Positions 5,460 to 60,394 of a stretch of 64,000 nucleotides of DNA are shown here, in pieces (within the stretch, counting starts at the first letter, position 1; each line of letters begins with the position of its first letter). Source of the stretch: Sandaracinus amylolyticus (GTDB lineage Bacteria; Myxococcota_A; Polyangia; Polyangiales; Sandaracinaceae); NCBI RefSeq assembly GCF_021631985.1, contig NZ_CP070225.1, forward strand, positions 5,394,001 to 5,458,000, written 5' to 3'. Under the pieces are notes generated by a model that saw only the letters and a list, made by a program, of their open reading frames with translations, made no database searches and was not told the DNA's origin. The translations under genes were made by a program, and so were the position numbers.

Positions 5460-5561
5460 CTCTCGAGGTCTCCTTCCCTCGAGCCGAGCCCTCAGCAGCC
5501 GACGTGCCGCGCACGGAATGCACGACGAACTCGCAACCATCACAATTCCATGACGATCCGC

Positions 5562-5608: not shown

Positions 5609-7090
5609 ATGGCACGTCCTCTCGAACGGCTCGCCGCGCGCGACCGGGACTTCCTCGCGAGCGTCGCCGCCGCCATCGCGGCGAACCCCTTCGGCGAGGA
5701 GCGCCTCGAGATCGATCGCACCGTGGTCGGCGCGGACGCGGGCGTACCGCGCGCCGAAGTGCTCGGCCGCATGCTCGCGAAGCTCGATGCCCGGCTCGAA
5801 GGAATCGCGCGCGGACGACCGCTCGATCTGCGTCGCTTCGCCGGCGAGGATCGCGACCTCGTCGAGGCGGGGCTGCTCTTCGCGGTGTTCCATCGCATCG
5901 CCGATGCGCTCGACGAGCGCATCCGGCGCGAGGTCGCGGGCGAGCGCGGCACGGTCGGCTTCGCGCGCGAGGCGCTCTCCGAGCTCGCGTCGCGCGGCAT
6001 CGACGAGCCGCAGGCGCTGCACTACCTCGCGATCTTCTGGCAGATGCGGCGCGCGTTCTTCTTCGTCGAGACGTCGCTGCCCGGCACGAGCCCCTCGATG
6101 TGGCGGCTGCGCCAGTCGCTGTGGAACGACCTGTTCACCGCCGATCTCCGCCTCTACGCGCGCTTGTTGTGGCGACGCATGGAGGACTTCTCCACGTTCC
6201 TCGCGGGCGAGACCGGCACCGGCAAGGGCACCGCGGCCGCGGCGATCGGGCGCTCGGGGTTCATCCCCTACGACGCCAAGCGCGAGCGCTTCGCGTCGTC
6301 GTTCGTCGATGCGTTCCTCGCGATCAACCTCGCGGAGTTCCCCGAGACGTTGGTCGAGAGCGAGCTCTTCGGGCACGAGAAGGGCGCGTTCACCGGCGCG
6401 GTCGCGGAGCACGCGGGCGTGTTCGCGCGCGCGAAGGCGCACGGCGCGATCTTCCTCGACGAGATCGGCGAGGTCTCGCAGGCGGTGCAGGTGAAGCTGC
6501 TCCACGTGCTGCAGGAGCGGACGTTCCGACCGGTGGGCTCGCACGCGCCGCGTCGCTTCGAGGGCCGGGTGATCGCGGCGACCAACCGCACGATCGCGAC
6601 GCTGCGACGCGAGGGCACGTTCCGCGACGACCTCTGGTACCGCCTCTCCGCCGACGTGATCGAGATGCCCACGCTGCGGCAGCGCCTCGACGAAGATCCC
6701 GGCGAGCTCGACGTGCTCATCGCGGCGATCCTCGAGCAGATGCTCGGCGAGCAGCCGCGTGATCTGATCGCGCTGGTGCGCGAGGCGATCGCGCGCGACG
6801 TGGGCGAGTCGTATCGCTGGCCGGGCAACGTTCGCGAGCTCGCGCAGTGCGTGCGGCGCGTGCTGCTCACGCGGCGCTACGTGCCCGAGCTCGCGCAGAG
6901 CGCGGTCGCGGAGGACGCCGAGGACGCCCTGCTCGCGGCATCGGGAGGAGGCGCGTGGAAGGCCGAGGAGCTGATCGCGCGCTACTGCGCGGCGCTCTAC
7001 GCGCGGCTCGGTACCTACGAGGCGGTCGCCGAGCGCGTCGGGCTCGATCGACGCACCGTGAAGCGCCACGTCCTCGCGGCGCAGCGCTGA
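5609..7090 (+). CDS. Sigma54-dependent transcriptional activator (orphan enhancer-binding protein)
   Basis: The 493-residue protein carries a sigma54-interaction AAA+ domain: Walker A GETGTGKGT (about 200-208), GHEKGAFTGA at about 255-264 (the sigma54 contact loop), Walker B AIFLDEIGE (about 280-288), and WYRLSADVIEMPTLRQR. The C-terminal helix-turn-helix is GTYEAVAERVGLDRRTVKRHV. The first 190 residues are not a receiver, GAF, PAS or FHA domain that I recognise, so the input signal is unknown. I chose ATG 5609; no Shine-Dalgarno sequence precedes it, in line with a leaderless transcript. A candidate sigma54 promoter exists in this window at 55.3 kb, but nothing links the two. Confidence 0.92.
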   Translation: MARPLERLAARDRDFLASVAAAIAANPFGEERLEIDRTVVGADAGVPRAEVLGRMLAKLDARLEGIARGRPLDLRRFAGEDRDLVEAGLLFAVFHRIADALDERIRREVAGERGTVGFAREALSELASRGIDEPQALHYLAIFWQMRRAFFFVETSLPGTSPSMWRLRQSLWNDLFTADLRLYARLLWRRMEDFSTFLAGETGTGKGTAAAAIGRSGFIPYDAKRERFASSFVDAFLAINLAEFPETLVESELFGHEKGAFTGAVAEHAGVFARAKAHGAIFLDEIGEVSQAVQVKLLHVLQERTFRPVGSHAPRRFEGRVIAATNRTIATLRREGTFRDDLWYRLSADVIEMPTLRQRLDEDPGELDVLIAAILEQMLGEQPRDLIALVREAIARDVGESYRWPGNVRELAQCVRRVLLTRRYVPELAQSAVAEDAEDALLAASGGGAWKAEELIARYCAALYARLGTYEAVAERVGLDRRTVKRHVLAAQR

Positions 7091-26699: not shown

Positions 26700-26771
26700 G
26701 GCTCTATCGACCTCCCCTTCGCGTCCGCCCGACGCAGCTCCGGAATCAGCACGCGAGGTGCCAGACTCGAT

Positions 26772-48016: not shown

Positions 48017-50512
48017 CTACTCGGCGGCCGCGTCCTCGGGCTCGACGCGATCGAAGCGCACCGCGCCCGCAGCGCCCCGCGCGACGACGCGATCACCACG
48101 CCGCACGCCGCCCGAGAGCACGAGCGAGGCGAGCGGAGCCTCCACGAGGCGTCCCACGGTGCGGCGCATCGGACGCGCGCCGAGCGCGGGATCGAACCCA
48201 CCGCCCGCGACCAGCGCGTCGATCGCGCTCGCGTCGATCACCAGCTCGATCGCGTGCTCGTCGCGCATCACCGCGATCACGCCGCGCAGCATGCGCCGCG
48301 CGATCTCCGCGACGTCGTCCTGCCCGAGCGGCGCGAAGAAGAGCGGCTCGTCGATGCGGTTCCACAGCTCGGGCGGCATCGCGCGGCGCGCCGCGCTCGT
48401 CGCACGATCCGCCGCGCTCGAAGTCGTCCTCGTCTCACCACCGCCGAACCCGATCGCGCGCGGCGCGCTCGTCGCGCTCTCCGACGCGCCGAGGTTCGAC
48501 GTCATCACGATCACGGTGTTGGTGAAGTCGAACGTGCGCCCACGTCCGTCGGTGAGACGACCTTCGTCGAGCAGCGGGAGCAGCGCGAGGAGCACGTCGG
48601 GATGCGCCTTCTCGATCTCGTCGAGCAGCACGAGCTGATAGGGACGACGACGCACGCTCTCGGTGAGCTGACCGCCCTCGTCGTGCCCGACGTAGCCCGG
48701 CGGTGCGCCGAAGAGACGCGCGACGCTGTGGGGCTCGCCGTACTCGCTCATGTCGAAGCGCGACATGCCGCCCGCTCCGAACATCAGCTCGGCGATCGCC
48801 TTCGCGGTCTCGGTCTTCCCGACGCCGGTCGGACCGAGCAGCAGGAACGTGCCGAGCGGACGGCGCCCGCGGAACCCGGCCGCGCCCTTGCGCAGCGCGT
48901 CGGCGACGCGCGCGAGCGGCCCGCGCTGACCGACCACGCGCGACGCGAGGTGCGACTCGAGCGCGAGCAGTCGATCCGCGTCGCGCACCAAGAGGCGCTC
49001 GAGCGGCACGTGCGCCTCGTCGGCGATGACCTTCGCGACCGCCTCGACGTCGACGATCGATCCGCCCGCGCGACGCACCCGCGCGGCCGCGAGGTCGAGC
49101 GCGCCGAGCGCCTTGTCGGGCAGGTGTCGCTCGGGAAGGAAGCGCACCGAGAGCTCGACCGCCGCGCGGATCGCCGCGGGATCGTAGGCGACGGCGTGGT
49201 GGATCTCGTAGCGCGGCGCGAGCCCGCGCAGGATGCGGATCGCCGCCTCGGGATCGGGCGCGTCGACGTCGATGCGCGTGAAGCGACGCGCCAGCGCGGG
49301 ATCGCGCTCGAGGTGCTTCTTGTACTCGGCGTCGGTGGTCGCGCCGATGCACGGCAGCTCGCCGCGCGCGAGCGCGCTCTTGAGCTCGCTCGCGAGATCG
49401 TCGGGGCCGTCGCCGCCGGCGATCGCGTGGATCTCGTCGAGGAACAAGAGCACGCGCCCTTCGCTCTTCGCGACCTCGTCGCGCAGCTTGCGCAGCTTGT
49501 CCGCGAGCGCGCCGCGCACCCCGGTGCCCGACACCAGCGAGCCCGCGCTGATCTCGACGAGCAGCTTGCCCTCGAGCCCCGGCAGCGGCGCGCCGGGCTT
49601 CGCCATCGCGAGCGCGAGGCCCTCGACGATCGCGGTCTTGCCCACGCCGGGCGGGCCCACGAGCAGCGGGTTGTTCGCGCGACGACGCCCGAGCACGTCG
49701 AGCAGCGCGTCGATCTCCTTGTCGCGACCGAACACCGGATCGATCGCGCCCGACGCCGCGAGCGCGGTGAGGTTGCGGCCGATCGCGGAGAGGATCGGGA
49801 AGCGCTCGCGATCGAGCTCGTGCGGGCACGTGTTCGCGGCGGGCTCGGTCGTGATCGCGCGCGGCGCCTCGGGCGGGGTCGTGGTGCGCGGCGTCACGCG
49901 GCGGTTCGTCGGGCGCGCGGTCGTGCTCGACGGCGGCGCGACCGAGGTGCGGGTGCGCGGGACCGGAGGAACGATCGGCGCCGGGCGCGGTCGCGCCGGC
50001 AGCGTGGGGCGCACGTCCTCGTCGGCGCGGCTCGTCGCGTCGGCGCGCACGATCTCCGCGCGGGGTGCCTCGATGCGGCGCGCCGGACGCGAGGGCTCGC
50101 TCGGCGCCATCGGAGCGATCGTCGCGACCAGCGCGTCCTCCACGCTCTCGCGCACGCGCGCGGTGTTCGCGCCGGTGTGCTCGAGGCAGCGATACGCCAT
50201 CGAGCGCGGCTCGCGAAGCATCGCGAGGAGCAGGTGCAGCGGTCGCACGTGCGCCGCGTGGGTGCGCGCGGCGAGCGCGGCCGCGCGCTCGATCGCGACC
50301 TCGAGCGCGCTCCCCGGCTCGTCGTCCGCGACCTTCAGCGCCGAGACGAGATCCTGCTCGCGAACCTGATGCACCGAGAGCACCCGCTGGGACTCGGGAT
50401 CGTTCTGCAGGATCGTGAGGAGCACGTGCGCGGTGCTGGCCGCCTGCTGTCGCGCGCGCGCCGTGCGCCGCGCCACGCCGATGAGTCCTTCGAGCGCTCC
50501 CGCGTGGGTCAT
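48017..50512 (-). CDS. ClpA-type two-domain AAA+ unfoldase
   Basis: The 831-residue protein has a Clp N-domain (EGLIGVARRTARARQQAAST), a Pro/Thr-rich linker (about 135-230), AAA domain 1 (Walker A GPPGVGKT 286-293, Walker B LLFLDEIH) and AAA domain 2 (GPTGVGKTE 560-568, Walker B LVLLDEIEKAHPDV). There is no ClpB-type middle domain. At 687-689 it carries IGF at the place where ClpA and ClpX have the loop that docks on ClpP, so it probably feeds a protease. GGAGG precedes ATG 50512 by nine bases. It is last in the GTPase/kinase operon, 126 bases after the response regulator. Confidence 0.9.
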   Translation of the reverse strand: MTHAGALEGLIGVARRTARARQQAASTAHVLLTILQNDPESQRVLSVHQVREQDLVSALKVADDEPGSALEVAIERAAALAARTHAAHVRPLHLLLAMLREPRSMAYRCLEHTGANTARVRESVEDALVATIAPMAPSEPSRPARRIEAPRAEIVRADATSRADEDVRPTLPARPRPAPIVPPVPRTRTSVAPPSSTTARPTNRRVTPRTTTPPEAPRAITTEPAANTCPHELDRERFPILSAIGRNLTALAASGAIDPVFGRDKEIDALLDVLGRRRANNPLLVGPPGVGKTAIVEGLALAMAKPGAPLPGLEGKLLVEISAGSLVSGTGVRGALADKLRKLRDEVAKSEGRVLLFLDEIHAIAGGDGPDDLASELKSALARGELPCIGATTDAEYKKHLERDPALARRFTRIDVDAPDPEAAIRILRGLAPRYEIHHAVAYDPAAIRAAVELSVRFLPERHLPDKALGALDLAAARVRRAGGSIVDVEAVAKVIADEAHVPLERLLVRDADRLLALESHLASRVVGQRGPLARVADALRKGAAGFRGRRPLGTFLLLGPTGVGKTETAKAIAELMFGAGGMSRFDMSEYGEPHSVARLFGAPPGYVGHDEGGQLTESVRRRPYQLVLLDEIEKAHPDVLLALLPLLDEGRLTDGRGRTFDFTNTVIVMTSNLGASESATSAPRAIGFGGGETRTTSSAADRATSAARRAMPPELWNRIDEPLFFAPLGQDDVAEIARRMLRGVIAVMRDEHAIELVIDASAIDALVAGGGFDPALGARPMRRTVGRLVEAPLASLVLSGGVRRGDRVVARGAAGAVRFDRVEPEDAAAE

Positions 50513-50638: not shown

Positions 50639-51385
50639 TCAGGGCGCGCGAGGCTCGGTGGTGGGCGCGTGGTCGCGGACGCGCGCGCGGATGCGCTCGT
50701 CGAGCCACGCGACGAAGTCCTGCTTGTCGAGCACCTGCGACACGTGGAGCTCCCTCCACACCCGCGCGTCGCGCACCGTGCGATCGTTCGACTGCACGAT
50801 CACGGGCACGCGCGCGAGCGCGGGACGAGCGCGCATCGCGCGGATCAGCTCGACGCCGTTCATCACCGGCATGTGCACGTCCGCGATCACCAGATCGACC
50901 TGGCGCGACTCGAGCACGCCGAGCGCGTCGCGCCCGTTCTCCGCCTCGACGACGACGAAGTCGGGCTCGAGCACGAGCCGGTAGAGCTCGCGCGTGTCGG
51001 CCTCGTCGTCGACGATCAGGATCGTGCTGCGCACCGGACCGCGCGCGAGCACACGCCGGACCGCGGCGCGCACCTCGGACGCGGTCGCGGGCTTGCCGAG
51101 ATAGCCCGACGCGCCCGCGAGCACGGCGTCGGCCTCCTTCGCCGCGACCGAGACGAAGAGGATCGGCACGCGCCGGAAGCGCCGCGCCATGCGCGCGAAC
51201 ATGAGCCCGTCGATCTCCGGCATCAGGATGTCCGCCACCACGAGATCGGGAGACCAGTCGCCGAGGATCGTGAACGCCTTCGCGCCGCTCGCGACGGCAC
51301 GCACCTCGTGTCCCATCGCGGTCAGCGCGGTCGTCATCCACGCGAGCGTGCCGCGATCGTCATCGAGCAAGAGCAGCTTGGCCAT
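50639..51385 (-). CDS. Double-receiver response regulator
   Basis: The 248-residue protein is two receiver domains in tandem and nothing else. The first has LLLLDDDRGTLAW, phospho-acceptor Asp52 in VADILMPEIDG and Lys98 in LGKPA. The second has ILIVDDEADTREL, Asp169 in IADVHMPVMNG and Lys221. Both sets of catalytic residues are complete. With no output domain, it must act by protein contact. The gene overlaps the histidine kinase gene by 26 bases and has a strong ribosome site (GGAGG, six bases). Confidence 0.93.
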   Translation of the reverse strand: MAKLLLLDDDRGTLAWMTTALTAMGHEVRAVASGAKAFTILGDWSPDLVVADILMPEIDGLMFARMARRFRRVPILFVSVAAKEADAVLAGASGYLGKPATASEVRAAVRRVLARGPVRSTILIVDDEADTRELYRLVLEPDFVVVEAENGRDALGVLESRQVDLVIADVHMPVMNGVELIRAMRARPALARVPVIVQSNDRTVRDARVWRELHVSQVLDKQDFVAWLDERIRARVRDHAPTTEPRAP

Positions 51386-52484
51386 CGAGCACCTCCGTGT
51401 TCGCCGCAGCCGCGCGCAGCCGCACCCAGAACTTCGAGCCTCGCGGAGCGCGAGGCTCGTAGCCGATGCGGCCACCCCAGCCCTCCACCGTGATGCGACA
51501 GAAGTAGAGACCGAGCCCCGTGCCCCGGCGGTCGCGCCCGCGCGGGAGCTTCTCGAAGAGCTGCGGCAGCAGCTCGGGCGCGATCCCCGGGCCCTCGTCG
51601 GCGACCGTGATCACCACGTCGTCGTCCTTGCGCGTCACGCAGACCTCGACGGTGGCGCTCTCCGGGCTCAGCCGGATCGCGTTGTCGAGCAGGTTCGTGA
51701 CGACGCGGAAGAGCCGCGTGGGCTCCGCGATCACCTTCGCGGGCGCGGGATCGCGCACCATCACGAGCCGCACTGCGCGTCGCCGCGCGACGAGCTCGCG
51801 CTCCGCGAGCACCTGCTGGATCACCGCCGCGGCGTCGGGCGCCGACTCGCCGCGCTCGACGTTCGCACCTTCGCCTCCGTGCTCCGCGGAGAACACGTCG
51901 AGGATCTCGGCGATGAGATCGCGCTGTCGCATGCCGGCCTGGAGCGCGAGCCCCACCAGCTCTCGGGTGTCGATGCCCTCGGCGTTCTCCGCGAGCAGCG
52001 AGAGCGTGCCGAGCACGCTGTGGAGCGGCGCCGCGAGATCGTGCACCACCGCGTGCACCAGGATGTCCTTGGTCTCGATCTCGCGCGTGAGCGCGTCGTG
52101 CGCGAGGCGCTGCTCTCTCGCGCGCTGCAGCACGAGCTGCTGCTGGGCGTAGAGCCGCTCGTTGCGTCGGATCACGAGGGCGCGCGCTCCCCCGACGCGC
52201 ACCGCGGTCGCCTCGAGGTGGATCTGCTCGCCATCGACGCCGTCCTCGGTCCAGAAGTCCGAGTCCACGCGCGCGCCGAGTGGTGCCTCCCACGCCGCCT
52301 CCGCATCGGCGACGAACGCGGTCATGAACTCGAACATCTCTTCGACGACGAAGGGCTCGTCGAGCGGAGGCGGCTCGCGCGAGAGCGCGTCGCACCACCC
52401 CGGCGCGGGCGAGCGCGCGACGAAGCGACCATCGTCGAGACGCTCGAGCACCAGCTCGTCGAGCACGGCCGCGAGCACGCTCAC
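51360..52484 (-). CDS. Soluble sensor histidine kinase
   Basis: The 374-residue protein has an N-terminal sensor region of about 110 residues of PAS-like size, a coiled linker (RLYAQQQLVLQRAREQRLAH), the phospho-His segment LVHAVVHDLAAPLHSVLG with His148, and an ATPase domain with NLLDNAIRLS, VADEGPGIAP and GTGLGLYFCRI. No membrane helix was seen, so it senses inside the cell. Its GTG start overlaps the GTPase stop (GTGA) and its end overlaps the response regulator gene. The GTPase product is a candidate input. Confidence 0.92.
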   Translation of the reverse strand: MSVLAAVLDELVLERLDDGRFVARSPAPGWCDALSREPPPLDEPFVVEEMFEFMTAFVADAEAAWEAPLGARVDSDFWTEDGVDGEQIHLEATAVRVGGARALVIRRNERLYAQQQLVLQRAREQRLAHDALTREIETKDILVHAVVHDLAAPLHSVLGTLSLLAENAEGIDTRELVGLALQAGMRQRDLIAEILDVFSAEHGGEGANVERGESAPDAAAVIQQVLAERELVARRRAVRLVMVRDPAPAKVIAEPTRLFRVVTNLLDNAIRLSPESATVEVCVTRKDDDVVITVADEGPGIAPELLPQLFEKLPRGRDRRGTGLGLYFCRITVEGWGGRIGYEPRAPRGSKFWVRLRAAAANTEVLDGQAALAR

Positions 52485-52999
52485 GTCCACGCCGATCGCC
52501 TCCCCGCGAGGATCGCGTCCACCAGCAGATCGAACGCGCGATCGACGCCCGCACCGGTCTTCGCGCTCGTGAGCACGCAGGGCCATCCGCGCTGCGCGAG
52601 CTGCGCGGTGTCGCGCTCGCGGATCTCCCACGCCGCGACCATGTCGGCCTTGTTGATCGCGACCACGAACGGGATTCCGCGGATCGCAGCCTGCGCGCGC
52701 GAGTTGAGCACCGACGCGACGTCGAGCGTGTCGCGCCGCGTTCCGTCGGCGACGAGCAGATATCCGGCCGCGCCCCGTAGATACGCGGGCTGCACGTTCT
52801 GGAACTCGTCCTCGCCGCTGAGATCCCAGACGACGAGATCGACCGGGCGCTCGTCGCGCATCACCCGCCGGCTGAGGATCTTCACGCCGATCGTGGTCTC
52901 GTAGCGCTCCGAGAAGACGCTGTGGACGTAGCGCGCGACCAGGCTGGTCTTCCCGACCCCGGTCGCGCCGATCATGCAGAGCTTCAGCTTGAGGCTCAC
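52481..52999 (-). CDS. Ras/Rab-like small GTPase
   Basis: The 172-residue protein shows all five G motifs: P-loop GATGVGKTS (11-19), switch I Thr in YETTIGVK, DLSGEDEF (59-66), NKAD (116-119) and SAK (145-147). It is closer to eukaryotic Rab/Ras than to Era or Obg types. The residue equivalent to Ras Gln61 is Glu63, so intrinsic hydrolysis may be slow and depend on a partner. It overlaps both neighbours by four bases (GTGA), which suggests tight co-production with the OmpA-like protein and the kinase. Confidence 0.92.
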   Translation of the reverse strand: MSLKLKLCMIGATGVGKTSLVARYVHSVFSERYETTIGVKILSRRVMRDERPVDLVVWDLSGEDEFQNVQPAYLRGAAGYLLVADGTRRDTLDVASVLNSRAQAAIRGIPFVVAINKADMVAAWEIRERDTAQLAQRGWPCVLTSAKTGAGVDRAFDLLVDAILAGRRSAWT

Positions 53000-54762
53000 G
53001 GGCGTGCCTCCTCGCAGGGCGTGGGGCGCACCTCGAAGGTCGCGCGTCGCGCGGTCCCGGCGGCGCGCGGCTCGGGCGCTGCGACCTCGGGCATCAGCGC
53101 GCGCTCCGGGACCCCGCGCTCGCGCAGCGCATCGACGACGGCGCGCGCGCGCTCGACGCGCAGCGCGCCGGCACGTCCGCCGCCGCGCTCCTCGGCGCCT
53201 CCCGACACGACGACGCACGACTCGGGCGTCGCTGCGATCACCTCGCCTGCGTGGGCCGCCGCACGATCGAGCGATGCACGCGCGGTCTCGAGCAGCGCGG
53301 CCGATCCCGGCGCGAACGGGATCACCAGCCCCTCGAGCGCTTCGATCGCGGCGCGCTCGTCGACCGCGCGCAGCTGCGACTCGTCGACCCGATCCACGTC
53401 GGAGAGCACGGTGCTCGCGACCCGGGTGCGATCGATCCACGCGGGAGGCGCCTCGCCCGCGAACCGCAGCGTCCGGTCTTCGAGCGAGAGACGCACGCTC
53501 GGCGGCGGATCGAGCGCCGCACGCACACGCTGCTCCGCGAGCCTCGGATCGCGCGACTCGAAGGGCGCGAACGCGAGCTCCGCGCCCGCGAGCCCGCGCC
53601 GCGCGAGGATGTCCTCGGGCGCGCTCGCGAGTGGATCGCGGAGGCCGGTGATGCGACTGCGATCGTCGTCGTCGATCGCGGAGATCACCACGATCCCGGG
53701 CTCGGCCCGCAGCGCGTCGACCGAGGCCTCGAGCCGGCGCGCCGCGGTGGTGCGCCCCGACCACCAGGAGGCCAGCGCGCCTGCGATCGGCAGCGCGAGC
53801 AACGCGAGCGCGATCCCGAGCCAGACGTGCGCCCGCCGCGGCGGCGTCGCGCGCACCTCGCGCAAGCACTCGGAGAGCGTCGTCTCGGTGCTCGCGAACG
53901 GGCCGACGTCCGACGAGAAGCCGCAGAGCTCGGCCCGGCGCTCGATCGCGATCCGCTCGCGCGTGCCGCGCGCGAGATCCGCGAGCTCGCGCGGTGCCTT
54001 TCCGCGGACCACGAGCGCGACGGTGACCATCGCGTCGCGATCGATCCACATCGTGAGATCGCCCGCCTCGAGCTGGCCCACGTGCGCGCCGGGCTCGCCG
54101 GGCGCGAACGCGTCGACGACGAACGCATCGATCGCCGCGAGCATCGACGCGACCTGATCGGGATCGATCGCTCCGATCCCCGGTGCGGCCACGTGACGCA
54201 GCGCGACGCCGGAGGGCGAGTGGATCAGGAACACCTGCTCGACGCGGTACACGAGCGTGCGCGCGAGGACGATCTCCGCGAACGGAACGCCGGTCCGCCA
54301 CGCCTCGATCCGCCAACGCACGCTCTGCGGGGAGAGGCTCCGCTCGAGCACCGTGTCGATGCGCTGGAGCAGCGCCGCGAACGCCTGGCTCACCGCGCGT
54401 CGGACCGCCACGCCGATCGTCGGCGAGAGGATCTCCGCGAGCAGATCGGCATCACGCCGCACGATGCTCCGGACCGACTCGGTGACCGGACGCTCGAGCG
54501 CGACCGAGAGCTCGTGGCCGCGCGTGCGATCCGCGGTCTCGACGGCCTCGGGGAGCACGCCGCCGACCGTGCGCGGCGCGACGAAGGGCTGCTGCGCCTC
54601 GATGGCGTCGATCCGGGTGCGCTCGTCGCCGACGACGATGCGGCGGATCTCGTCGAGGCTCTTCGCCGCCTCCGCCGGCGTCGGCGCGGGGGCCGCGGCT
54701 CGCGGGCGAAGGCGCCGCCGCGGGCCGAGCGCGCCCTCAGTGCGCACGCGGCTCGGTTCCAC
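52996..54762 (-). CDS. Membrane protein with longin/roadblock-like N-domain and OmpA-like C-domain
   Basis: The 588-residue protein has a cytoplasmic N-part of about 310 residues, one membrane helix (VWLGIALALLALPIAGALASWW, about 313-334) and a periplasmic C-part. The region 170-275 (VYRVEQVFLIHSPSGVALRHV, MLAAIDAFVVDAF, GDLTMWIDRDAMVTVALVVRG) has the strand-helix order of longin/roadblock folds that regulate small GTPases. The C-terminal 110 residues resemble an OmpA peptidoglycan-binding domain (ARASLDRAAAHAGEVI, RVERARAVVDALRERGV). It could tether the GTPase to the cell wall. The GTG at 54762 overlaps the upstream gene by 26 bases; a GTG at 54747 is also possible. Confidence 0.75.
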   Translation of the reverse strand: MEPSRVRTEGALGPRRRLRPRAAAPAPTPAEAAKSLDEIRRIVVGDERTRIDAIEAQQPFVAPRTVGGVLPEAVETADRTRGHELSVALERPVTESVRSIVRRDADLLAEILSPTIGVAVRRAVSQAFAALLQRIDTVLERSLSPQSVRWRIEAWRTGVPFAEIVLARTLVYRVEQVFLIHSPSGVALRHVAAPGIGAIDPDQVASMLAAIDAFVVDAFAPGEPGAHVGQLEAGDLTMWIDRDAMVTVALVVRGKAPRELADLARGTRERIAIERRAELCGFSSDVGPFASTETTLSECLREVRATPPRRAHVWLGIALALLALPIAGALASWWSGRTTAARRLEASVDALRAEPGIVVISAIDDDDRSRITGLRDPLASAPEDILARRGLAGAELAFAPFESRDPRLAEQRVRAALDPPPSVRLSLEDRTLRFAGEAPPAWIDRTRVASTVLSDVDRVDESQLRAVDERAAIEALEGLVIPFAPGSAALLETARASLDRAAAHAGEVIAATPESCVVVSGGAEERGGGRAGALRVERARAVVDALRERGVPERALMPEVAAPEPRAAGTARRATFEVRPTPCEEARP

Positions 54763-55279
54763 GTCCCGTGCCCTCGTCGAACGCTTCGTCGGCCGGGCCG
54801 AGCTCGCGATCGAGAGTGGCCGCGACGTCGTCGCGAACGCGGCGCACCTCGTCGAGCGACGCCTTCGCCTGCTCGAGGATGCGATCGCGCAGCTCGCGAT
54901 GCGCGCGCACCTGCATCTCCTCCATCTTCGCGAGCCGCTGATCGAGCGACGACATCGCCTCGCGGTGCTCGCGCGCGAGCGCGCGGATCTGCTCGCGCGC
55001 CTCGCTCGTCTCCGCATCGAAGCGCGTGATCAGCAGATCGAGCTCGCGACGGAAGTGCCCCTGGAGCAGATCGGTCCGTCGCTTGAGCTCGTCCTCGACG
55101 TCGTGCGTCTTGGAGCTCACGTGCGAGTCGATGCGCTTCAGCTTGCGATCGAGCTCGCGCTGGGCTCCGCCGAACAGGATGTCGCGGAGCTGCTCGAGCG
55201 CCTCGCGCGGCGAGCCGTCACCGCGTGCACGGGTCTGCATCTCGATCCCCTGCGGCTCGCGATCGTCTTCCGGGTCCAT
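54737..55279 (-). CDS. Long coiled-coil protein, first gene of the GTPase operon
   Basis: The 180-residue protein is almost entirely heptad-patterned: ELDRKLKRIDSHVSSKTHDVEDELKRR (in two heptad blocks), DLLITRFDAETSEAREQIRALAREH and LDQRLAKMEEMQVRAHREL. The N-terminus (MDPEDDREPQGIEMQTR) is polar and disordered, then LEQLRDILFGGAQ. It has no membrane helix. It is cytoplasmic and may act as a scaffold or effector of the GTPase. The start ATG lies 14 bases from a sigma54-type promoter. Function unknown. Confidence 0.75.
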   Translation of the reverse strand: MDPEDDREPQGIEMQTRARGDGSPREALEQLRDILFGGAQRELDRKLKRIDSHVSSKTHDVEDELKRRTDLLQGHFRRELDLLITRFDAETSEAREQIRALAREHREAMSSLDQRLAKMEEMQVRAHRELRDRILEQAKASLDEVRRVRDDVAATLDRELGPADEAFDEGTGRGTEPRAH

Positions 55280-55595
55280 GCGGTGTCGAGGCTGCATCCG
55301 CGGTGCCACCGGACGCGGATCGCATCGCCCCGCGCGAGGGGTGATCGAGCGCGCTCGGGCCCGAGGACGAGGCCTGGCGCGGGTCGTCGCAGGGCGAGCC
55401 CCCGCGCCACGGCGCGCCGAGCTCCGGACCGAGCGGCGCGCGCGTGATGACGCGAGCGCGAGCAGGCGCGCGAGTGCGACGGTGTCGGCGTGAATCGCGC
55501 GCGCGTCGATGGCGTCGGGAGCCTCACTCCGCCGCGGATGACTGGCGACGCACACGTCTGCTAGCCTCGCGGGCCGTGACGAGAAGGAGCCCTCG
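55280..55595. other. Divergent intergenic region between the GTPase operon and a secreted-protein gene
   Basis: Apart from the sigma54 site at its left end, no gene is supported. Near the right end TAGCCT (55562-55567) could be a -10 for the plus-strand gene at 55596, but its -35 is poor. An activator binding site would be expected in this 316-base stretch; no clear inverted repeat was found. Confidence 0.4.
55293..55308 (-). promoter_or_regulatory. Near-consensus sigma54 promoter of the GTPase/kinase/Clp operon
   Basis: On the minus strand TGGCAC (55308-55303) is followed, after the correct spacing, by TGCA (55296-55293), so GG and GC are ten bases apart as sigma54 requires. Transcription would start about three bases before the ATG at 55279. 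Such promoters need an AAA+ activator like the one encoded at 5.6-7.1 kb. Confidence 0.6.
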
Positions 55596-56171
55596 ATGAC
55601 GTCTCGGAAGCCGCGCGCCCTCGCCCTTTTCGCCCTCGCTGCGATGTCGGCGCTCACCTTCGCGCTCGCGGGCGCAGTGCTGCCGAGCAGCGCGGTCCCG
55701 CACGCCGAGGCTCAGCGCCTGCGCGCGACGGTCTACGTGACGCAGGCCGCGATCCCGCGCGGGCTCACCGAGAAAGCGCTCGTCGGGTTCGGACGCGGCC
55801 ACCAGGCGCGCACGATGAACGAGAGCACCGAGGCCGAGATCGAGCAGCGCCACTGGCTCGCGAACATGATCGTGCAGTTCAACGCGCCGCCGGGCGACCT
55901 CGAGTATCACGCGCTCTTCTACAACGTGACCGACGGCGCGCGGAACTTCGTCGACGACATGGCGATCTACCTGAACGGCCGCGATCAGCGCACCTACGTG
56001 CAGCGCCTGAACCTCGCGCGCCCGCGCTTCCAGCCGAACAAGCGCTACGAGCTGGTGATCACGGTGCGTCGCGCGGAGGTGGGCTCGACCCGCTTCGAGA
56101 CGCGTGGCGAGGAGCCGCGGCGCTCGGGCCAGGTCGACTTCAGCGTCGAAGACACGCGCGCCCGAGACTGA
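55596..56171 (+). CDS. Secreted hypothetical protein
   Basis: The 191-residue protein has a basic start and a long signal peptide (LALFALAAMSALTFALAGAVL, cleavage likely near SAVPHAEA). The mature part is beta-rich: RLRATVYVTQAAIPRG, MIVQFNAPPGDLEYHALFYNV, YELVITVRRAEVGSTRF. GAAGGAG stands six bases before the ATG. It has no lipobox or anchor, so it is probably periplasmic or released. I do not recognise the family. It may be regulated divergently with the GTPase operon. Confidence 0.72.
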   Translation: MTSRKPRALALFALAAMSALTFALAGAVLPSSAVPHAEAQRLRATVYVTQAAIPRGLTEKALVGFGRGHQARTMNESTEAEIEQRHWLANMIVQFNAPPGDLEYHALFYNVTDGARNFVDDMAIYLNGRDQRTYVQRLNLARPRFQPNKRYELVITVRRAEVGSTRFETRGEEPRRSGQVDFSVEDTRARD

Positions 56172-58872: not shown

Positions 58873-59673
58873 CTACGGAAGCAGATCGAGCGGGCGCAGG
58901 CGAGGCGCGAGTGTCTCTTCCGTCGCGCGACGCAGCACGAGCGACTGGCGCTCCTTCGTGAACAAGCCGAGCGCGGCGAGCTCGGGCTCGGGCAGATCCG
59001 CGAGGGTCGTGCCTGCGGCGTCGAGCTTCGCGAGGATCGGATCGGTCGCGCGTCGATGGGGCTCGAGCGTGCGCCGCACCAGCTCGCGCCAGTCCGCGCG
59101 CGTGCTCTCGGGGAAACGCGCGAGCGCCTTCTCGACGTAGGCCCAGCCGAACGCGTGGTGCGTCTCCTCGTCGTCGAGCGTCGCGTCGAGCACGCGCTTC
59201 ACCGCGGGATCGCCGCACCGCGCCCGCAGGTCCTCGATGAACGCGACCGACAGCGTCTCGTTCACGCAGAGCATCGCGATCGCGGTGTGGAGTGCGCGCT
59301 CCGCCGCGGGCGCGCGGGTGTACGCATCGGGCTCGCGCAGCTCGATCGGATCGGGGAACACCGGCGCGCCACCGAGCGCCTCGCAGAGCGCGACCGTGAG
59401 CCGCACGTGGCGCAGCTCGTCGACCACGAGATCCGCCGCGCCTGCGTAGACCTCGATCGGATCGCCCGCCGCGATCACCTCGCCGAGGAAGCGATTCATG
59501 ATCTGCACGCTGCGCAGCTCGGTGCGGACGCGCTCGGCCCACACGCGGCGCGCCAGCTCGATGCGCGCCGGAGGATGCGCGTCGAGGCGCAGATCCGAGA
59601 GGTCCACGACGGGCCCGAGCACCTCGTCGCTCAGCGACGCGAAGAGCCCGCGCTCGTGGCGGATCGGACGCAT
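58873..59673 (-). CDS. Ferritin-like di-iron protein
   Basis: The 266-residue protein is all-helical with two ExxH metal motifs: ADLVVDELRHVRLTV and DDEETHHAFGWAYVEKAL, plus CVNETLSVAFIEDL, a third helix bearing Glu. This is the four-helix di-iron arrangement of ferritin-like oxidases. Substrate unknown. The ATG shares one base with the stop of the upstream lipoprotein gene (TGATG), and the stop lies three bases before prmA, so the three are probably one operon. Confidence 0.72.
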   Translation of the reverse strand: MRPIRHERGLFASLSDEVLGPVVDLSDLRLDAHPPARIELARRVWAERVRTELRSVQIMNRFLGEVIAAGDPIEVYAGAADLVVDELRHVRLTVALCEALGGAPVFPDPIELREPDAYTRAPAAERALHTAIAMLCVNETLSVAFIEDLRARCGDPAVKRVLDATLDDEETHHAFGWAYVEKALARFPESTRADWRELVRRTLEPHRRATDPILAKLDAAGTTLADLPEPELAALGLFTKERQSLVLRRATEETLAPRLRPLDLLP

Positions 59674-60251
59674 CAGCCGGGACAGCCGCTGCCCGGCGGG
59701 CTCGCGCAGTAGCCCTCGCCGCAGTCCTCGAAGAGCCCGTAGTTGCACACCGCGCCCGCGGGGCAGAAACACAGATCGATGCGCCCCTCGGCGTTGCAGC
59801 AGCGCTCCCAGTCTCCGGGCTCGCCCGCGTCGGGAAGGCCGCCATGGGGCGCGGCGCAGAACGCCTCGGGGTCGCTCGAGTGCTCGTACGTGCATCGACC
59901 GTCGTCGCACACGACGAGGCCGAGCCCGTAGTTGCACGACGCGCCTCCCGGGCAGAAGCACGTGTCGAGGCGCCCGTCGGTGCAGCACGGCTCCCACGTG
60001 CCACCCGCGTCGATCTCCGCATCGCGACGGCCCCCGTCCTCGCCCACCCGCGCGTCGGTGCCGACCACGCGCGCGTCCTGCGGGACGCTCGCGTCGCGTG
60101 TCGCCTCGCGCGACTCGCTGCACGCGCCGAGCACCAGCGCGACGAGCATCACCATCGCGCCCACCCACGCGCCGCCGGGCCCACAGCCCGCCAGCGCGAG
60201 CGCGAAGAGGGCCAGCGCCGCGACCCGCACCGTCGAGACTCGATCGCCCAT
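59673..60251 (-). CDS. Lipoprotein with duplicated Cys-rich module
   Basis: The 192-residue protein has two successive lipobox-like sites, ALALAGC and, 20 residues on, LVALVLGAC after a second hydrophobic stretch, so either cysteine may be lipidated. A polar spacer leads to two homologous modules: EPCCTDGRLDTCFCPGGASC with NYGLGLVVCDDGRC, and ERCCNAEGRIDLCFCPAGAVC-type with NYGLFEDCGEGYC. Each has about eight cysteines, likely disulfide-bonded outside. ATG 60251 follows GGAGGG by six bases. Family unknown. Confidence 0.75.
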   Translation of the reverse strand: MGDRVSTVRVAALALFALALAGCGPGGAWVGAMVMLVALVLGACSESREATRDASVPQDARVVGTDARVGEDGGRRDAEIDAGGTWEPCCTDGRLDTCFCPGGASCNYGLGLVVCDDGRCTYEHSSDPEAFCAAPHGGLPDAGEPGDWERCCNAEGRIDLCFCPAGAVCNYGLFEDCGEGYCASPPGSGCPG

Positions 60252-60394
60252 GCGTGCCCTCCGGAGTGCCACGGAACGCCGTCGCGCAGCAACGGGCGTG
60301 CCTCGGAATTCCGCGCGAAGCTGAGCTCGATGGTGTGCCAGGCCGAGCCGGGAAGTTGCGGGGGTGGGCTCCGTCGTCTCAACGTCGAGGCCCC

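Follow-up and report, generated by a model that had tools for sequence, protein, structure and literature searches.

The 16-bp sequence TGGCACCGCGGATGCA, located on the minus strand at 55308–55293 of the window (the whole 64,000-nt stretch of Sandaracinus amylolyticus DNA that was analyzed), is likely the sigma54 promoter of an operon that extends from gene 1, encoding a coiled-coil-like protein, to a receiver gene. We consider it one of a class of start-codon-abutting sigma54 promoters found across the genome. In a broader reading, to which we give nearly the same credence, the order holds a large undescribed class of sigma54-switched leaderless genes, in which the −24/−12 element is joined to the start codon and which often encode lipoproteins or other exported proteins. 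The site at 55308–55293 is real and apparently one member of this class. Sequence statistics argue strongly for the promoter and for leaderlessness of the class, and moderately for leaderlessness of gene 1.

The −24/−12 site and its operon

The −24 GG of the candidate promoter occupies 55307–55306 and the −12 GC 55295–55294, with 10 bp separating them; the sequence is as described in the earlier note, which had reported TGGCAC and TGCA at sigma54 spacing on the correct strand. The predicted transcription start, 12 nt beyond the C of the GC, is at 55282 (± ~2 nt, minus strand), three bases 5′ of the ATG at 55279–55277. The sigma54 consensus used for our 12-position count is TGGCACG-N4-TTGCW; the site scores 10/12, with two positions off consensus.

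The claim that such a pattern is rare in 64 kb depends on stringency. With at most one mismatch to TGGCACN5TTGCA, the site is the sole match within the window, and TGGCACN6TGCA occurs 11 times in the entire 10.96-Mb genome, or ~0.06 times per 64 kb. With at most two mismatches the window holds 4 matches vs 6.5 in shuffles, an absence of excess that makes loose matching uninformative. A reversed-pattern control for TGGCACN6TGCA (63 vs 11 matches) was set aside: the reversed pattern contains ACG and is thus made of other dinucleotides, so wrong-spacer controls were used instead. The top sigma54-like site of the window is not the one at 55308–55293. It is AGGCACGCCCGTTGCT at 60303–60288 (minus strand, 11/12), which lies 5′ of a lipoprotein-like gene (59673–60251) with a predicted 26-nt leader containing a Shine-Dalgarno (SD) sequence. 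Sites scoring 10/12 are also found at 26748–26763 and 5494–5509 (both on the minus strand), with predicted leaders of 38 and 24 nt to called genes.

No sigma70-type consensus was found in 55150–55700. An enhancer would have to reside in the upstream intergenic region (55309–55595), which is common to the operon and a divergent gene at 55596–56171 (plus strand). This GC-rich stretch contains many GC-rich inverted repeats, none of them distinctive as an enhancer.

The genes downstream of the site are all on the minus strand. Gene 1 (54737–55279) encodes a coiled-coil-like protein of 180 (or 167) residues that belongs to no Pfam family. It is followed by gene 2 (52996–54762, start uncertain), encoding a membrane protein whose C-terminus is weakly OmpA-like (PF00691, E = 0.0012, and 2.5e-7 in the G015 ortholog); gene 3 (52481–52999), a Ras-like small GTPase (PF00071, E = 1.9e-30, 106 bits against a cut-off of 21.6); gene 4 (51360–52490), a histidine kinase (PF00512, PF02518); and gene 5 (50639–51385), with two receiver domains (PF00072 in two stretches) and no sigma54-activation domain. 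Gene 6 (48017–50512) comes after a 126-nt gap, and its membership in the operon is uncertain. It encodes a Clp-like AAA protein that fails to reach the curated cut-offs of the ClpA, ClpB, ClpK, ClpG, and TssH models.

The S. amylolyticus genome (10.96 Mb in two contigs, ~70% GC) contains one PF04552 match (RpoN, E = 1.6e-65) and 87 PF00158 matches (enhancer-binding proteins), of which 72 have E-values no higher than 2.3e-39. No enhancer-binding protein is encoded among the genes of the operon; the sole strong match within the window, at ~6182–6652 (plus strand, E = 1.2e-44), has no link to it.

Sigma54-type sites between genes and next to start codons

Our sample of the S. amylolyticus genome was the window plus eighty 20-kb stretches, 1.664 Mb in total, and a further 0.8 Mb came from a congener, G001. 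Genes were called by a purpose-written codon-usage script, a crude caller, and control sites had a spacer altered by 1–2 bp (wrong-spacer). Among matches of at least 10/12, right-spacer sites are intergenic in 43/69 cases in S. amylolyticus, vs 43/476 wrong-spacer sites, and in 23/36 cases in G001, vs 25/231; 8.9% of random positions are intergenic. The intergenic excess of right-spacer sites argues that most right-spacer sites of at least 10/12 are under selection, most simply as promoters.

Leader lengths were predicted for intergenic sites that score at least 9/12 and lie at most 250 nt from a called start. Leaders of 0–6 nt follow 17 of 88 right-spacer sites in S. amylolyticus (a total uncorrected for L140, whose start is called too far downstream as judged by its ortholog) vs 6 of 153 wrong-spacer sites; the corresponding values for G001 are 15 of 38 and 4 of 67. 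Pooling the two genomes gives 32/126 vs 10/220 (Fisher P = 2.6e-8). When only S. amylolyticus sites of at least 10/12 are considered, a 0–6 nt leader is predicted for 9/69 right-spacer and 1/476 wrong-spacer sites. ATG counts that do not depend on the gene caller reveal the same offsets in both genomes: downstream of the 69 S. amylolyticus sites of at least 10/12, five ATGs begin at offset 14 and five at offset 15 from the C, vs 0.77 per offset further downstream, and the 36 sites of G001 are followed by three and three, vs 0.46.

Genes of this class differ from other genes around the start codon. SD-like 4-mers precede the start in 5/32 leaderless-class genes, 42/76 leadered sigma54 genes (leader of at least 18 nt), and 855/1976 genes overall. 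In 26/32 leaderless-class genes, vs 47% overall (P = 7e-5), a C directly precedes the start codon, as expected if transcription began at the codon's first base with a pyrimidine-purine step. Lipobox-like N-termini are found in 11/32 leaderless-class genes vs 302/2060 genes (P = 0.005); they are also present in 22/76 leadered sigma54 genes and are thus a trait of the sigma54 set rather than of leaderlessness alone. In many leaderless-class genes a signal sequence starts at the called start, supporting those starts. Among 437 genes that have 40 nt or more of intergenic DNA upstream, positional k-mers suggest a second, sigma70-type leaderless class, marked by TTGC/TTGAC around −39 and GGTA/GCTA around −17 relative to the start codon.

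Two leaderless ortholog pairs were found between the S. amylolyticus and G001 samples. In L110/L173, TGGCCGCGCGCTTGCT and TGGCCGCCGGCTTGCT are each located 12 nt 5′ of an ATG, and the intervening bases have partly diverged. In L140/L167, CGGAACGCGGGTTGCG is 12 nt 5′ of a GTG and TGGAACGCGCGTTGCG 13 nt 5′ of an ATG. Two leadered pairs, the site at 60303–60288 with L170 of G001 and L104 with L179, retain both the site and the SD. The L136/L190 pair has a site in one member's scan only, or its start is unclear, and L185/L104 is a paralog-like match without a site.

Across 177 genomes of the order, GGCACGN5TGC followed by an ATG after 12–15 nt yields 3875 matches, vs 1597 with the spacer lengthened by 1 bp and 1163 with the ATG after 32–35 nt. 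The leaderless layout outnumbers the spacer +1 control in 144/177 genomes; the three counts are 45/16/10 in S. amylolyticus and 41/10/13 in G001. The earlier note had taken a very short leader as unusual for sigma54, a view that these numbers and the pooled counts of predicted leaders contradict: the layout is common in the genus and in much of the order. Right-spacer matches do not outnumber wrong-spacer matches in the 13 genomes of family f5 (105 vs 136) or in the 6 genomes of genus g48 of family f12 (121 vs 161), and barely do so in the 3 genomes of g267 (74 vs 69). Within the phylum, a stricter consensus occurs in 300/356 genomes, far above the reversed pattern, and among the matches listed there is a weak peak at gaps of 12–17 nt (37/139 vs 27 if flat). 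The missing excess in f5 and f12-g48 and the weak phylum-wide signal argue that the class is lineage-dependent. One 4.8-Mb genome (G247) contains 52 occurrences of TGGCACG-N4-TTGC before an ATG, near-identical up to GACCGACTCGATG among the matches listed; they form a repeat family or else mark a large regulon whose genes are alike.

Orthologous loci, the start of gene 1, and rival readings

A three-sequence profile finds homologs of gene 1 in 19/183 genomes of the order (the final two hits being weak) and in 18/377 genomes of the phylum, several of them weak. The two closest orthologs, in G015 and G033 (family f7), each have an exactly spaced site. In G015, gene 1 is likewise followed by the membrane protein (41% identity) and the GTPase (53%), and TGGCCGCGCGCTTGCA precedes the only ATG by 14 nt, measured from C to A; this ATG lacks an SD. 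In G033, where gene 1 and the membrane protein are kept (36% identity for the latter), TGGCCGACAAGTTGCT places the predicted +1 ~160 nt before an SD-led ATG; thus, the short-leader layout is not conserved in G033. Each site is the single best of its locus, by a first score that was set after both sites had been seen, and a neutral 12-position count gives 9/12 for each. At the S. amylolyticus rate of 1.78e-4 per nt, ~8.5% of 500-nt stretches would hold a 9/12 site by chance, so that the ortholog-site argument alone is worth roughly 0.007. Retention of the site upstream of orthologous operons, on which the earlier note had staked its reading, is seen in the two closest orthologs; upstream of the distant homologs no comparable sigma54 site was found. 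Three f12-g267 genomes (L068, L069, and L070) share a conserved TCGCAY or GCGCAT-N5-TTGCG ~33 nt before the gene 1 ATG; its spacing is sigma54-like, but the GG is broken and it was not counted as a site.

Gene 1 has two candidate start codons. ATG 55279–55277, which is not preceded by an SD, would give a near-leaderless transcript with 3 nt before the start codon, and the peptide MDPEDDREPQGIE is the predicted product only if translation begins there. The 13 codons that follow (to 55241) have a coding score of 9.0 bits, a value reached by 23% of 1338 coding segments and 0.7% of 605 upstream non-coding segments, the latter figure being biased somewhat low by the caller's choice of starts. The in-frame ATG 55240–55238 is preceded at a distance of 6 nt by the SD AGGGG (55251–55247), whose pairing of −6.5 kcal/mol compares with a gene median of −5.6. 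This ATG could be the true start of a message with an ordinary 42-nt 5′ UTR made from a real sigma54 promoter, ATG 55279 being incidental, a reading that we regard as rather unlikely. It is favored by the SD, by GGGGATCGAGATG, which is common to gene 1 and its homolog in L075, and by the protein alignment of gene 1, which starts near ATG 55240. However, it leaves the coding-like score of the 13 preceding codons without a role, the only ATG of G015 is 14 nt from its site and lacks an SD, and the existence of a leaderless sigma54 class makes ATG 55279 unsurprising. On the strength of the coding-like codons and the matching G015 geometry we moderately favor ATG 55279, and both starts could be used. 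The near-absent leader proposed in the earlier note would hold only if ATG 55279 is the start; from the SD-led ATG 55240 the predicted leader is 42 nt.

Two further readings dispense with a leaderless promoter altogether. The −24/−12 match could be a chance string, with another promoter transcribing the operon. Its two departures from the consensus and the abundance of loose window matches, no greater than in shuffles, are in line with this idea, which nonetheless seems improbable given that a 0–6 nt leader follows 1/476 wrong-spacer vs 9/69 right-spacer sites, that both closest orthologs have sites, and that 55150–55700 lacks a sigma70-type match. Alternatively, sigma54 sites adjoining start codons could obstruct or tune transcription that originates farther upstream. 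Our evidence is sequence, and a fixed site just 5′ of a start codon would suit a block as well; yet a block explains neither the loss of the SD in the leaderless class alongside its retention in leadered sigma54 genes nor the C before the start codon that points to a pyrimidine-purine start, and we regard this reading as very improbable. The site at 55308–55293 is probably a working sigma54 promoter on the right strand, and this reading of the earlier note is backed by RpoN, by the many enhancer-binding proteins, by genome-wide enrichment of such sites 5′ of genes, and by the sites in the two closest orthologous operons.

Proposed mechanism and relation to known systems

In the mechanism that we propose, sigma54-RNA polymerase would wait on 55308–55293 as a closed complex, which one of the cell's many enhancer-binding proteins would open, and the promoter would drive the gene 1-membrane protein-GTPase-kinase-receiver operon. 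Throughout the class the GC element is located ~14–17 nt before the start codon, which would put the 5′ end of the mRNA at, or a few bases before, the AUG or GUG, and these mRNAs would be translated without an SD leader. In gene 1, the SD-led start at 55240 may serve instead of or alongside ATG 55279. If the model is correct, activator-dependent transcription is coupled to SD-independent translation, and whole regulons lack a 5′ UTR: there is no SD, riboswitches and small RNAs have no leader on which to act, and leaderless translation would begin once the activator fires. The class also provides a rule by which start-codon annotation in these genomes can be corrected.

Our searches of the open-access literature turned up no paper that describes a class of leaderless sigma54 genes. 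In the parts of each source that we draw on, bacterial leaderless genes were identified through a −10 box only (PMC3160421); leaderless mRNAs were associated with an extended −10 motif, RpoN motifs being handled separately (PMC4842269); 171 starts were reported as leaderless and 112 as carrying RpoN motifs, with no cross-tabulation in the parts covered (PMC3616915); leaderless mRNAs were abundant and sigma54 sites few in Leptospira (PMC5243855); distances of sigma54 sites were given in 100-nt bins (PMC3162934); and the algorithm used did not find RpoN motifs (PMC9045368). A class with leaders of 0–6 nt could escape both the −10-only survey and the 100-nt bins, as far as these parts describe them.

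The GTPase of the operon resembles prokaryotic single-domain Ras-superfamily GTPases, a likeness drawn at the superfamily level, in that it is likewise a single-domain Ras-like protein; it differs in that its gene adjoins genes for a coiled-coil-like protein and an OmpA-like membrane protein. With canonical sigma54 promoters, the site at 55308–55293 shares the GG and GC elements, their spacing, and a genome that encodes RpoN and enhancer-binding proteins, and enrichment 5′ of genes is seen here as in the portion of PMC3162934 on which we rely. In contrast to canonical promoters, the GC is so near the start codon, at 14–17 nt, that an SD leader cannot fit between them. The −10-box leaderless genes, as presented in the parts of PMC3160421 and PMC4842269 considered here, resemble the present class in that their start codon coincides with or adjoins the predicted 5′ end and no SD precedes it. 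They use a sigma70-type −10 element, whereas the class described here has a −24/−12 element and would need an activator.
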